Below are positions 1 through 9,172 of a stretch of DNA of 64,000 nucleotides, piece by piece. The position numbers and the translations under genes were made by a program. The notes under the pieces were generated by a model, which worked only from the letters and a program-made list of their open reading frames with translations, searched no databases and had not been told where the DNA came from. The DNA comes from Actinomycetes bacterium (lineage in GTDB: Bacteria > Actinomycetota > Acidimicrobiia > Acidimicrobiales > RAAP-2). Location: positions 1 through 64,000 of the forward strand of contig JAJZMD010000221.1 of assembly GCA_021803085.1 (NCBI GenBank), given 5' to 3'. The stretch's first letter is position 1. Every line of letters starts with the position of its first letter.

Positions 1-114
1 CGCCACGAGCTGGCGGGGCCGGCCACCGGTGGGCATCAGCACCTCGAAGGTCGCACCCACCCCTGCGCGGGCGATCGCGGCCTCGATGGCCTGGCGCCTG
101 CGGGCGCGACTCAG
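1..114 (-). CDS. Partial gene cut by window edge, possibly transposase-related
   Basis: An open minus-strand frame reads through 38 codons into the window edge, with a convincing protein-like composition (arginine- and alanine-rich helix, then a TFEVLMPTGGRPRQL-like segment). I see no ATG or GTG start clearly upstream of it. The frame touches the stop codon of the upstream recombinase-like gene, so it probably starts by translational coupling near 114 or at an internal GTG. The PTGGRPRQL segment reminds me of actinobacterial transposase-like proteins, but that is memory of a pattern and not a domain call. Function is left open. Confidence 0.35.
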   Translation of the reverse strand, partial: MSRARRRQAIEAAIARAGVGATFEVLMPTGGRPRQLVA

Positions 115-1007
115 CCCTGCCCTCCGATGAGCGCGACCGCCCGGGCCTGTGTCATCTCCTCCAGGTGAACGACCAGGTCGCCCAGACGCTGGGAGCAGGT
201 GATCCCGGCCGCGTCCATGAAGGCCCGAAGCCCGATCGCCTCTGCTACCTCGCACAGCCACGTCGCGCGCAGCCGTGCGACCTCGAGCCGTGGGAGATCC
301 TTCCCTCCCGAAAGCGACGCGGTGATGGGCGTCGTCACGTTGCGCCGGGAGGTCGATGTGCCGCCGATGAGAAGCCCGCTGCCGGCGAAGCCCGCGGCGG
401 CACGCAGCCGGTCGTGGTAGCGAGAGAGGACCGGCACCACGCGCGGACGACGCCCCTCTTGCACCACCACGACGACGCCGCCCGAGCGCGGGGCGACGTC
501 TGTGCCGTGCACGGCCTTCAGGTCCGCGCCGACGAGCCCCGCACCTGCTCCGAGGCAGACGAGCGCCCCGGCGCGATGGCGGCGGCCCTCGGTCGGCTGG
601 GCGTCTGAGAGCGCGAGGTAGGCCGAGATCTCTGCATCCGAGTAGGGGTCCTTGGCTCGCTCGCGCGAAAGGCGCGGGGCTTGGGGAGCCAAAGGGGCGA
701 TGCGCCGGGCAATCGCCCGCAGGTTGGTCCGCACCGTCCGGCGCGTCGCTTGGGACATGGTGCCCGTACCCGGCGCACAGAACCGCTCGATGACCGAGGT
801 CCGCAAGAGCACCTCGGGGCTGAGCTCGAGGCCACAGGCCTCGCCGAAGGCAGCGAGTCGAGAGGCAGCGAACAAGAAGGCCTTCGCCCGGTTGACCGAC
901 CCCGGCCGGGCGGTTGCGACGAGCTCTCTTGCGAAGCTCGCCGCCTCCTCGTCGACGCCACGCGGGCGGAACGACGCGACGGCGGTGGCTACCGGGTCCG
1001 GTTGCAT
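111..1007 (-). CDS. Tyrosine-recombinase-like protein with degenerate catalytic residues
   Basis: A 298-residue protein starting MQPDPVATA at an ATG (1007). An earlier in-frame start would run across the divergent neighbour. Residues 1-130 resemble an N-terminal core-binding (SAM-like) helical domain. The second half follows a tyrosine-recombinase plan: a helix GALVCLGAGAGLVGADL where the first catalytic Arg of an integrase would sit, a beta strand with VVPVLSRY, and a LEVARLRATW segment in place of HxLR. The first Arg, the His and the terminal Tyr are not evident, so strand transfer is doubtful. It is divergent from the DUF6788 gene, 23 bp away, and overlaps the next minus-strand frame at its stop. 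The recombinase call is fold-like inference. Confidence 0.55.
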   Translation of the reverse strand: MQPDPVATAVASFRPRGVDEEAASFARELVATARPGSVNRAKAFLFAASRLAAFGEACGLELSPEVLLRTSVIERFCAPGTGTMSQATRRTVRTNLRAIARRIAPLAPQAPRLSRERAKDPYSDAEISAYLALSDAQPTEGRRHRAGALVCLGAGAGLVGADLKAVHGTDVAPRSGGVVVVVQEGRRPRVVPVLSRYHDRLRAAAGFAGSGLLIGGTSTSRRNVTTPITASLSGGKDLPRLEVARLRATWLCEVAEAIGLRAFMDAAGITCSQRLGDLVVHLEEMTQARAVALIGGQG

Positions 1008-1008
1008 C

Positions 1009-1027
1009 GTGCAGTAGCATACTGTAC
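1009..1027. promoter_or_regulatory. Inverted repeat in the 23-bp divergent intergenic region
   Basis: The only DNA between two divergent genes is nearly filled by an inverted repeat: left arm GTGCAGTA (1009-1016), spacer GCA, right arm TACTGTAC (1020-1027), with 7 of 8 positions complementary. A site this tight against two start codons could be a shared operator, a recombinase binding site or both. Both messages would have to be nearly leaderless. Confidence 0.5.
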
Positions 1028-1030
1028 GAC

Positions 1031-1414
1031 ATGGCTGCAGCGGTGGATCCCGGGCGCGAAGGTGGTGGCGTGCGCCTCGACGCAAAGACCAGGGTCGAGG
1101 CGAAGCGTCTGGCTGACGAGATCGCGGCGGTGGCGCACCGCGGGCTCGCACTGCCGGGCACCCTCATCGAACGCCGCACGCGCTGTGGACGGCCGGGGTG
1201 CCGCTGCGGCGGCGACCCCCCGGCGCCACACGGCCCCTACTTCTCTTGGACGAGGAAGGTCGGCGGCAAGACCACCACGCGCTATCTCGGTGCCGAACAG
1301 CACGCGGACTATGGCGCATGGTTCGAGACCGCGAAGCGCTTGCGAGACCTCGTCTCCGAGCTCGAGGCCCTCGGGCTCAAAGTCGTCGAGGCCGACCCCC
1401 GCTTCGAGCGCTGA
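1031..1414 (+). CDS. DUF6788-family protein
   Basis: A 127-residue protein starting MAAAVDPG at ATG 1031; the open frame extends further upstream, but that would overlap the divergent gene. The core is a Cys cluster CGRPGCRCG (about residues 53-61), then GPYFSWTRKVGGKTTTRYL, the pattern I associate with the DUF6788 family. The clustered Cys suggest metal or nucleic-acid binding. The family is commonly met near mobile-element genes, and here it is divergent from a recombinase-like gene across a palindrome. No enzymatic function can be assigned. Confidence 0.6.
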   Translation: MAAAVDPGREGGGVRLDAKTRVEAKRLADEIAAVAHRGLALPGTLIERRTRCGRPGCRCGGDPPAPHGPYFSWTRKVGGKTTTRYLGAEQHADYGAWFETAKRLRDLVSELEALGLKVVEADPRFER

Positions 1415-2135
1415 GGACACGCAGCCGGAGCCGCCGACGCTGTGGGCTCGCGAGCCTCTGCGTGCCGGGCGCGCCACCTGCGTCCGCGTCGACGCTGCTC
1501 AGGGCACCGCCGGTGTGGGCTGACGTCGCTTATCGCGTGGGTGACCCACCGATCACGGCGCGAACTCGCTGCTCATACCCTTCTGTGAAGACCTCACCAC
1601 CACATTCCCCCCTGAGCAGGGATGATCGTGTTCATCACTGGGCGACATTCGTCACCAGTCAGCCTCGGTTGCGACCCCGATGGAGGACCGATGGAGGACC
1701 AGGCGCCGCGCAGGGGCCGCGGACCCGACCCAAACGAATGGTTAGACGATCCCCGCTACGTCGTCGACCTGGTCGCACGCATCGTGCGCGTGTCGGTCGA
1801 GAGTGCTGCGATCGTGGTGTCGCTGCCGACGCTTGGGATCTGACGGACCGATATCGGAGTCACCCCGCCTACTTCATCGAGCAGTCGTGCTCCAACAGGT
1901 CGATCAGCTTCGGGGCCCCCTGCTTCGTCGACTCCTTCGACAAGCCGACCGTCCCGTTGATGACGGCCGACGTGTACTCCAGGCGTTCTGCTGTGTCGGT
2001 CACCCGGAGCGCCCCCGAACAGCCGGCCGATGTGGGAGGCGAGGCTAGCGCAGCACAGCCGACGCGCTCCGAGGGCGTGACCCCAGGCCCTCCGTCGGTC
2101 GGGGGCCAGGTGGCGTGCGTCCGATCGCCGCCGGG
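1415..2135. other. Mostly non-coding stretch with one possible small gene
   Basis: Apart from the small frame at 1691-1843, nothing here is recognisable. On the minus strand an open frame ends at a TAG (1869-1871) and its last 45 codons have protein-like composition (around EYTSAVINGTVGL), but it has no clear start or homologue I can name. It may be the decayed tail of a gene downstream of the stress-protein gene. Confidence 0.4.
1691..1843 (+). CDS. Possible small protein of unknown function
   Basis: A 50-codon frame starting at ATG 1691, preceded by a good Shine-Dalgarno sequence (GGAGG, 4 bases upstream). The 11-bp string GATGGAGGACC occurs twice in tandem around the start. The predicted protein is hydrophilic at the N-terminus (EDQAPRRGRGPDPNEW) and ends in a short hydrophobic stretch. 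I recognise no family. Support rests only on the ribosome-binding site and composition, so it may be spurious. Confidence 0.3.
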   Translation: MEDQAPRRGRGPDPNEWLDDPRYVVDLVARIVRVSVESAAIVVSLPTLGI

Positions 2136-7489: not shown

Positions 7490-7876
7490 GCCGATCACCC
7501 TACCAACGCGCTCGCCGGCCCCACCGCGCCGAACGTCGTCGCCTGCGCCGGCTCCGCGAGGCCCGTTTCCCGAGGATCATCGAGACCGGCACCCAGAGCT
7601 TCCGGCTGAAGAGCCCCGCAAGGGGGCGGGCCAAGCCCCAGTAGCTCAGTGCACCCGCTGGAGCGCGAGGCACACGCCGAACCTGAGGGACGACGGTGAG
7701 AACGGGCGGACAGGTCGGCGTCCCACAGTTCAGGTAATGCGGTCATGCCTGACCTGTGCAGTCGGAGCGAGATCGGGTCTTGGTGCGGGCGACCAACGGG
7801 GGACCAAGTGGTGGACGAGACCTCAGGGGGCCACATCGTGCCTGGTCAGGTACGGTAGTGAGCCGATCGCCCCTGA
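7490..7876. other. Non-coding stretch preceding the tRNA fragment
   Basis: No gene can be supported here. The sequence lies just inside the proposed integration boundary at 7877-7923, where attachment regions are usually non-coding. No 5' half of a tRNA, and in particular no CGGGCTG-like acceptor strand placed to match the fragment at 7877-7923, is present. Confidence 0.5.
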
Positions 7877-7923
7877 CGTTCGGGACGCAGAGGTCCCCGG
7901 TTCAAATCCGGGCAGCCCGACCA
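7877..7923 (+). mobile_element. 3' fragment of tRNA-Pro(CGG), putative attachment site
   Basis: The 47 nt contain the 3' part of a proline tRNA. The anticodon loop TTCGGGA (anticodon CGG, 7881-7883) is closed by CG/CG. Then come AGGTC, a perfect T arm (CCCGG, TTCAAAT, CCGGG) and the acceptor 3' strand CAGCCCG followed by ACCA. The D arm and the acceptor 5' strand are absent, and the lower anticodon stem is broken. A clean 3' tRNA remnant that retains the acceptor end is the usual product of integration into a tRNA gene. Orientation implies the element lies to the left, with the intact tRNA beyond the window. Confidence 0.7.
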
Positions 7924-8098: not shown

Positions 8099-9172
8099 AT
8101 GGACGGCGCGGCGTCCGCTCGGCTGCGGGTGGGGGTGCTCTGGCGTGGCGAGCGGGGGGCCGAGCGACCCGCAGAAGACCGGGGCCTCGGAGGGCTCTTC
8201 GACGTCTTTCGCGCCACGGGGGTCGATGTCGTGCCCGTTCCGTTCGACGACACGCGCGTGGAGGAAGTCCGAAAGGAGCTGCACGAGCTCGACGGCGTGC
8301 TCGCCTGGGTGAACCCGATCCAAGACGGCGCCACCCGGCAGCACGTCGACGAGCTCCTGTGGGGGGCTGCGGCGAACGGCCAATTCGTGTCGGCGCACCC
8401 GGAGGTGATCGCCAAGCTGGGCACGAAACAGGTGCTGTTCGAGACTCGCCACCTCGGATGGGGGTCCGACACCAGCCTCTACCGCTCCGTTGACGAGCTC
8501 GGCGAGCGCCTGCCCGCGCGCCTGGAGCGCCTCGGCAAGCTCGTCGTGAAGCAGGGTCGAGGGAACGGAGGCAACGGCGTCTGGAGCGTCGAGCTCGCCG
8601 ACGCACATGCGCCGGTGACGCTCGGTACGCCGGTGCACGTCCGAGAGGCGCGGGCCAAGCACCACCAGTCCGAGCGTCTGAGCCTCGGAGCGTTCGTCCG
8701 ACGGTGCGAGCCGTGCTTCGCCTGGTCCGGCATTCTCGTCGACCAGGAGTACCAGCGTCGCCTCGCCGACGGTCTCGTCCGGTGCTACCTCTCGCTCGGC
8801 GAGGTCGTCGGCTTCTGTCACCAGTGGCCGGCAGGCCTTCTCGATGCCGGCGTTGCCGCGAACCTTTCCGACCGCGGCAGGCCGGCGATGGAGGGCCCGG
8901 AAGCACCGTCCCACCAGCGGCTCCGGCGGCTCGTGGAGCACCAGTGGGTGCCCGAGATGGCGCGCGTCCTCGGGCTGGACACCCACGACCTTCCGGTCAT
9001 CTGGGACGCCGACTTCCTCTTCGGCGATCAAGTCGAGCGTGGCGAGGACCGGTACGTGCTCTGCGAGATCAACGTCAGTGCCGTGTGGCCGTTCCCGCCG
9101 ACGGCGTCGACGACGATCGCCGCCAACACCCTTTCCCGGATAGAGGCCGCCCGCCGGTGCGCCGACGCATGA
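8099..9172 (+). CDS. Cj0069-family protein
   Basis: A 357-residue protein that opens with RLRVGVLWRGERG, the entry typical of the Cj0069 family. It continues with a layout like a divergent ATP-grasp enzyme: GVLAWVNPIQDG, LGTKQVLFETRHLGWG, LVVKQGRGNGGNGVW (a glycine-rich Lys-containing loop) and near the end VLCEINVSAVWPFPP (Glu-Ile-Asn). ATP-dependent ligation is an inference from that layout, and the substrate is unknown. The start is uncertain: ATG 8099 is preferred, and GTG 8069 is in frame. Its stop overlaps the lipoprotein gene by 4 bp (ATGA), so the two are translationally coupled. It lies immediately right of the tRNA-Pro fragment. Confidence 0.75.
   Translation: MDGAASARLRVGVLWRGERGAERPAEDRGLGGLFDVFRATGVDVVPVPFDDTRVEEVRKELHELDGVLAWVNPIQDGATRQHVDELLWGAAANGQFVSAHPEVIAKLGTKQVLFETRHLGWGSDTSLYRSVDELGERLPARLERLGKLVVKQGRGNGGNGVWSVELADAHAPVTLGTPVHVREARAKHHQSERLSLGAFVRRCEPCFAWSGILVDQEYQRRLADGLVRCYLSLGEVVGFCHQWPAGLLDAGVAANLSDRGRPAMEGPEAPSHQRLRRLVEHQWVPEMARVLGLDTHDLPVIWDADFLFGDQVERGEDRYVLCEINVSAVWPFPPTASTTIAANTLSRIEAARRCADA

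Follow-up and report, generated by a model that had tools for sequence, protein, structure and literature searches.

A DDE transposon at the 3' ends of tRNA and tmRNA genes and its non-catalytic tyrosine-recombinase-fold partner, a candidate target reader

The stretch of DNA analyzed here (the window, 64,000 nucleotides) belongs to a 4.2-Mb genome assembled in 296 contigs, and its position 1 is the end of a contig (C272:1). The features of interest, all lying next to that end, are the following.

1–116, minus strand: N-terminal start of a gene for a putative DDE transposase (the third frame), cut by the contig end and matched to a gene on contig C48
111–1007, minus strand: gene for a non-catalytic protein of 298 aa with a predicted tyrosine-recombinase fold (structural model and fold matches; catalytic residues lost; dN/dS)
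1007–1029, no strand: palindrome between the divergent start codons, with arms of 10 nt, 9 of 10 positions paired, and a 3-nt center; probable operator
1031–1414, plus strand: gene for a Cys-rich DUF6788 protein of 127 aa, an accessory (Pfam PF20586, E = 4.6e-25)
1581–1595, minus strand: left terminal inverted repeat (GAGGTCTTCACAGAA read inward), the same end as in relatives
1596–1600, no strand: ACCAC, the presumed left copy of a 5-bp target duplication, read by analogy with relatives

An earlier, sequence-only reading of this DNA had described a divergent pair of recombinase-like and DUF6788 genes with 23 bp that form an inverted repeat, and a third frame that is coupled to the recombinase-like gene and runs off the edge. 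The coordinates are right: the frame at 111–1007 on the minus strand is open over 298 aa, and the two genes diverge without overlapping, their start codons being separated by 23 bp (1008–1030). The third frame overlaps the recombinase-like stop codon (NTGA; CTGA in the window and TTGA, GTGA or ATGA in other copies), and is truncated because the window starts at the contig end; over 43 aa, it is 67% identical to the full-length transposase of contig C48, and further similar copies are found on other contigs of the window's genome. The palindrome (TCGTACAGTA, the center TGC and TACTGCACGA) is unexceptional when taken alone, as 11 of 100 shuffles were equally good. Conservation of the palindrome had been proposed as a check, and the same TATA-centered palindrome, placed between both genes, is indeed the best one in 18 of the 23 DUF6788-bearing loci; at 12 of those 18, no more than 5 of 100 shuffles were as good, and in L052 it is a perfect 12+12. 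We consider the conserved palindrome a probable operator. A promoter scan of positions 900–1620 found nothing. Outside the element end, at 2136–2573, lies an ORF that by eye resembles a universal stress protein.

By itself, the recombinase-like protein matched no Pfam family. A profile of 28 members finds the archaeal Xer recombinase XerA (4a8e) with an E value of 7.5e-6, and the structural model (pLDDT 91.3) draws 42 PDB matches at E ≤ 0.001 with Z up to 14.9 across residues 19–297, including matches to XerA, Cre, XerH and the integrase of Tn1549, nearly full length and with Z of 13–15. Modeling of the 111–1007 protein had been suggested as a further check, and its outcome is a tyrosine-recombinase fold, with core-binding and catalytic domains, that has lost its active site. 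Among the 28 members, with 4a8e as the reference, the R-K-H-R-(H/W)-Y set is missing: Arg-I, the His of HxxR and the His after Arg-II occur in 0 of 28 each, the position of the catalytic Lys is taken by G, A or another residue (K in 1 of 28), no Tyr is conserved (Y at one aligned position in 6 of 28) and 27 of 28 retain Arg-II. The apparent loss of the catalytic Tyr noted in the window's protein is therefore real and family-wide, and it comes along with the loss of Arg-I, Lys and both His. By its substitution pattern, the gene remains under purifying selection, with a median dN/dS of 0.31 in 45 pairs and 5458 differences at third positions versus 2756 at first and 2216 at second positions. In several relatives (L088, L093, L152, L153, L154, L156, L157 and L162), two to three recombinase-like genes stand in tandem ahead of one transposase.

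The product of the third gene is, judging by its conserved residues, a DDE transposase: D166, D266 and E441 are invariant in all 21 aligned members. Its Pfam matches at E ≤ 0.1 are weak, with DDE_Tnp_1_6 in 9 of 21 and DDE_Tnp_1 in 5 of 21 and a best value of 6.5e-6; neither family matched L009, a member from the window's own genome. A PHROGs search gave no useful match. NCBIfam IS701 scored 18.3 bits against a cut-off of 150, placing the gene outside the IS701 family proper. The sequence-only reading had envisaged an undescribed mobile element or a recombination-directionality module, and its first half survives, as a mobile element built around a recombinase fold without the Tyr. The second half is not supported: we saw no RDF-like protein, the third gene encodes a putative DDE transposase, and inverted repeats bound the element, with target duplications beside them.

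The DUF6788 protein is modeled (pLDDT 81) as an alpha-beta-beta-beta-alpha fold, for which the fold search gave no significant match (best E 0.3); the best of the nonsignificant ones are of the dsRBD and SRP9/14 types, several of them RNA-binding proteins of alpha-beta-beta-beta-alpha order. The window's genome holds seven DUF6788 matches, two of which lie next to a different transposase (L013 on C125 and L014 on C143). At both places, DUF6788 is divergent to an adjoining long gene, which resembles an ISKra4-type transposase. As it also stands beside an unrelated transposase in its own genome, we rejected DUF6788 as an element-specific part and consider it a shared accessory. No mention of DUF6788 was found in the open-licence PubMed Central papers searched.

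A survey of co-occurrence, also proposed beforehand, found the gene order again in other genomes: on contigs C48 and C165 and at seven loci from other metagenome-assembled genomes, DUF6788 diverges from the recombinase-like gene, which is followed by the transposase unless the contig is cut. These elements end in GAGGTCTTCACGTTT on the DUF6788 side and, mirrored, in AAACGTGAAGACCTC on the transposase side. By this comparison, the contig end cuts through a mobile element of which the window's genes form the left half. The element ends on the left at 1595, and the following ACCAC (1596–1600) presumably represents, by analogy, the discriminator A73, CCA and one nucleotide of a tRNA gene, the right ACCAC copy being located past the contig end. 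Since the contig breaks off before that point, the window alone could not reveal the main feature of these elements, insertion at tRNA 3' ends.

In the close, DUF6788-bearing group, exact inverted repeats with identical 5-bp flanks were found at L020, L021, L053 and L070, and identical flanks thus occur in just 4 of the 10 contigs with both ends. At L010, L015, L052, L055, L060 and L063 the flanks differ, which may come from mixed assembly of repeated copies. In the distant group, which nearly always lacks DUF6788 (L144 has it), a joint search for left ends within 2.5 kb found none for most elements. Searching about 13 to 45 kb upstream in 18 elements, we found inverted repeats and a 5-bp duplication in 7 of them, the repeats matching at 16 of 16 positions in L085, 14 of 16 in L148, L150 and L076, 13 of 16 in L145 and 12 of 16 in L163 and L171; a left end for L138, matching at only 11 of 16, is kept as doubtful.

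Every locus was oriented by its recombinase-like or transposase gene before ARAGORN was run. At 47 of 69 loci, a complete tRNA or tmRNA gene is found 60–280 bp beyond the stop codon of the transposase, always on the opposite strand and hence with the 3' end toward the element; at that distance there is none in the other orientation at any of the 69, and within 2 kb on the left side there is none either. Given 50 genes in a 2-Mb genome, chance would place such a tRNA beside about 0.6% of elements, a figure to be read with the elements being not fully independent (L155 and L159 are near-copies, and several loci come from one genome). The best or most informative places were examined, 40 in the order with profile A1, 20 in the class and 11 in the phylum with A4 and 20 in the order with A5, and none was selected by tRNA. 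The 69 loci were counted among 96 examined, 15 lacking the transposase C-terminus and 12 having less than 300 bp of room; left out of the target counts were the window, L162 (on the contig of L078), L016–L018 (on the contigs of L052–L054), L011–L014, L151, L160 and L161.

The targets comprise tmRNA and the tRNAs for Leu, Ser, Lys, Gly, Val, Ala, Cys, Arg, Pro, Met, Ile, Tyr and Thr, and relatives within one genome, G568, use different ones, Lys, Val and, beyond an inserted ORF, Ser. With so many isotypes and tmRNA targeted, the reader of the target must therefore rely on features common to their 3' parts, the T-arm and the 3' end of the acceptor. The remaining 22 loci divide into 10 with a T-arm motif only and 12 with neither gene nor motif, the latter including two of the three plasmid copies (L092 and L093). 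Matches to a T-arm 6-mer alone are weak, and those in L094, L141 and L154 are probably due to chance; L141 has a tRNA-Ser gene 1 kb on, beyond a transposase-like ORF. By eye, at least five of the T-arm-only loci (L010, L015, L053, L058 and L135) and L060, which has less room, abut tRNA 3' halves, and such a half seems to be enough as a target. The abutted halves consist of the acceptor and T-arm, some reaching the anticodon loop, as is seen in those displaced by integrase islands.

With the exception of L163, in all cases in which the register of the tRNA is legible, the discriminator (nt 73) is complementary to the duplicated base that adjoins the acceptor stem, and a NTGGT duplication corresponds to A73-CCA-N; the tRNAs flanking L020 and L021 are degenerate, and the register of the discriminator is not certain there. 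The site before and after insertion can be compared in the case of G251, where the element lies between two copies of TTGGT: in four congeners, a single TTGGT joins the hairpin-bearing flank to tRNA-Met. For L150, no exact empty site was found, the homology with G966 breaking at the 3' end of tRNA-Ser and being followed by 1.3 kb of other DNA. New insertions by the same tRNA have created tandem arrays at L056 and L150, the left flank of the latter ending in the right end of an older element. At the level of sequence, these are the marks of a transposon with inverted ends that makes 5-bp duplications at nt 73–77 of tRNA and tmRNA genes, always in one orientation, and that the elements home to tRNA genes we regard as close to certain. 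An indirect association, in which the elements ride on or decay beside tyrosine-integrase islands or only harmless insertions survive, could appeal to tRNA genes being the classic sites of islands, as described in part of PMC4383910, and to L053, L058, L060 and L135 abutting only a tRNA 3' half, as islands leave. It is nonetheless very improbable: the end of the element lies a few bp from the discriminator, in fixed orientation and with 5-bp duplications, survivorship would not set orientation and position to the base, and the exact empty sites contradict it.

Profile A1 of the recombinase matches 46 of 397 genomes of the same order and the broader profile A4 24 of 296 in a draw from the class and 36 of 396 in a draw from the phylum, matches under about 40 bits in the latter probably being ordinary XerC/D; the transposase profile A5 matches 54 of 248 genomes of the order. 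Relatives are also present on eight plasmids of Streptomyces and Rhodococcus, annotated as hypothetical proteins. On the plasmids of L092, L093 and L094, the divergent position of DUF6788 is taken by a regulator or Xre/MbcA-type antitoxin gene, and at L094, in Streptomyces, the right flank enters CRISPR-array-like repeats (7516–7900), with cas6e/cas1e/cas2e on the upstream side of the element. Both ends were found in seven distant elements, which are about 5–17 kb long and hold extra genes to the left of the recombinase–transposase pair. Nine of ten cargo proteins scanned match PADLOC models: a YhcG-type nuclease (L085), AbiD and a type II restriction-modification pair (L150), an OLD/GajA-like ATPase (L163), PDC-M32A (L148), PD-Lambda-2_B (L076) and type I restriction and specificity proteins (L145). 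The single protein scanned from L171 had no match, and at least one candidate defense gene is thus present in six of the seven. At L152, an ORF just past the transposase (8180–9106) reads like a CBASS-type nucleotidyltransferase, with no tRNA gene near.

We lean, by a little over an even chance, toward a DDE transposon that homes to tRNA genes with the help of its dead integrase-fold partner, the reader of the tRNA 3' half. The transposase would act on a pair of direct repeats on the right and on the inverted repeat on the left, and it would insert the element through cuts staggered by 5 bp at tRNA and tmRNA gene 3' ends, always with the transposase side beside the tRNA. The recombinase-like protein, retaining the DNA-binding clamp of tyrosine recombinases and unable to cut DNA, would recognize the dyad-symmetric T-arm region about 15 bp from the cut and recruit the transposase to the gene, reading the DNA as active integrases of the fold do. 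Either it or DUF6788 may bind the promoter palindrome and repress both divergent genes, and transposition may still be occurring. The role as a reader is supported by the integrase fold reading these same places in tRNA genes, according to part of PMC4383910, and by the recombinase-like gene being under selection and staying with the transposase over large divergence: in both the close and the distant group, it precedes the transposase on the same strand, with divergence down to about 80 bits, and the trees of the two agree broadly. Targeting of tRNA-Leu is clustered about equally in both trees, and the target isotype gives no separation of the two proteins as readers. Speaking against the recombinase-like protein being obligatory, the full-length transposases of L163 and L170 lie at tRNA genes with no such gene nearby, and no A4 match was found in G061 or G201, the genomes that carry them; upstream of the truncated L177 and L178 it is missing too. 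The 12 loci with neither tRNA gene nor T-arm motif and the close-group contigs with unequal flanks likewise count against our reading. In L163, which by its place in the tree nests among recombinase-bearing elements, the gene was possibly lost after insertion.

The recombinase-like protein may be a repressor as well as, or instead of, a target reader. In the main rival to our reading, to which the copies lacking it, L163 and L170, lend support, the transposon is the same tRNA-homing one and its transposase, perhaps with a host factor, reads the target, while the recombinase-like protein acts as an MrpR-type repressor that sits on the palindrome and quiets the element. The palindrome between the genes is conserved, and dead-recombinase repressors exist and are among the structural matches (MrpR/YopR and SroF, as described in part of PMC10516654). 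We nevertheless find this unlikely, if worth keeping in mind: nearly all distant elements without DUF6788 (L144 excepted) still keep the recombinase-like gene, some elements hold two to three of them, which is beyond the need of a repressor, and the copies without it can be later losses. An architectural role, in which the recombinase-like protein binds paired right-end repeats and builds the transpososome, the transposase setting the target, would suit its constant co-occurrence with the transposase and the right ends themselves, which in the listed members show by eye a pair of direct repeats close to the tRNA, spaced by about 22 bp. It is improbable, as nothing links these repeats to the recombinase-like protein and they are direct, whereas the arms of tyrosine recombinases are normally inverted. 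Extending the reading in which the dead partner finds the target, a dead tyrosine integrase may have become the targeting subunit of an unrelated DDE transposase, within a tRNA-homing superfamily that reaches from three-gene elements of 3 kb to anti-phage carriers of 17 kb across Actinobacteria; we give this broader proposal slightly less than an even chance.

As a rule, DDE transposases are either unspecific or depend on an extensive targeting apparatus such as that of Tn7. The element described here is compact, and it finds a position exact to the base next to tmRNA and many different tRNA genes with a single additional protein. This protein has a known DNA-reading fold, is a disabled member of the group of enzymes by which viruses enter tRNA genes, and may be what steers the element. 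If the recombinase-like protein is the reader, the element unites two unrelated recombination chemistries and provides a small targeting unit that can be studied in laboratory strains. The elements would provide a second route, besides integrases, for anti-phage genes to gather at tRNA genes, and they offer a test of why tRNA genes are hot spots. No description of tRNA-homing elements of this make-up was found in the open-licence PubMed Central papers searched.

Among known systems, the transposase resembles the IS4/IS1182/IS701-like ones, with which it shares the D-D-E triad, weak matches to Pfam DDE_Tnp_1_6 and DDE_Tnp_1 and to NCBIfam IS701, and presumably the Y-(2)-R-(3)-E-(6)-K motif, but the NCBIfam score is far under the cut-off and, to our knowledge, the usual members have neither a partner recombinase nor tRNA homing. 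Elements of the RIT/Tn554 type have tandem active tyrosine recombinases as their only enzymes; we rejected this type, as the window's group combines one dead recombinase with a DDE transposase, and the distant elements with two to three recombinase-like genes also have a transposase. The prophage regulators MrpR/YopR and SroF resemble the recombinase-like protein in having the full fold with catalytic residues lost and DNA binding as the likely remaining function, but the account of them in part of PMC10516654 gives no link to a DDE transposase, and MrpR keeps the Lys and Tyr whereas the window's family keeps neither. The TnGBS conjugative transposons likewise place a DDE transposase at a fixed distance from a genetic landmark, which in their case is a promoter, 15–16 bp upstream of the -35 box (part of PMC4701971). 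Dada combines a DDE transposase, target duplications and small-RNA-gene targets including tRNA-Leu and tRNA-Ala, but it is eukaryotic, of another transposase lineage, makes duplications of 6–7 bp, and has no recombinase-like partner named in the relevant part of PMC3706591. Among the Tn7-like elements (CAST I-B2 and I-D), CyCAST inserts 30–33 nt downstream of tRNA-Leu (parts of PMC10293859 and PMC11406308). Those with a tRNA-homing TnsD/TniQ share with ours the DDE transposition to a fixed site beside a tRNA through a dedicated selector, and cargo, but here the cut is at nt 73–77 of the tRNA gene and the partner is a dead tyrosine recombinase; TnsA, TnsB, TnsC and TniQ (TnsD) had no Pfam or NCBIfam match at E ≤ 1 among the proteins scanned from the window, L009 and L010, and the elements are accordingly not Tn7-like. 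The islands of tyrosine integrases at tRNA and tmRNA genes share the target genes, the fold and the tRNA 3' half, and integrases of the fold use the same subsites of tRNA genes (part of PMC4383910). We rejected an integrase-type island at the window's locus and its relatives, as the recombinase is dead and occupied and empty sites differ instead by a 5-bp duplication: in the islands, as part of the same source describes, the integrase is catalytic and its crossover splits and restores the gene, whereas here the chemistry would be that of a DDE transposase beside a recombinase fold that can no longer cut.
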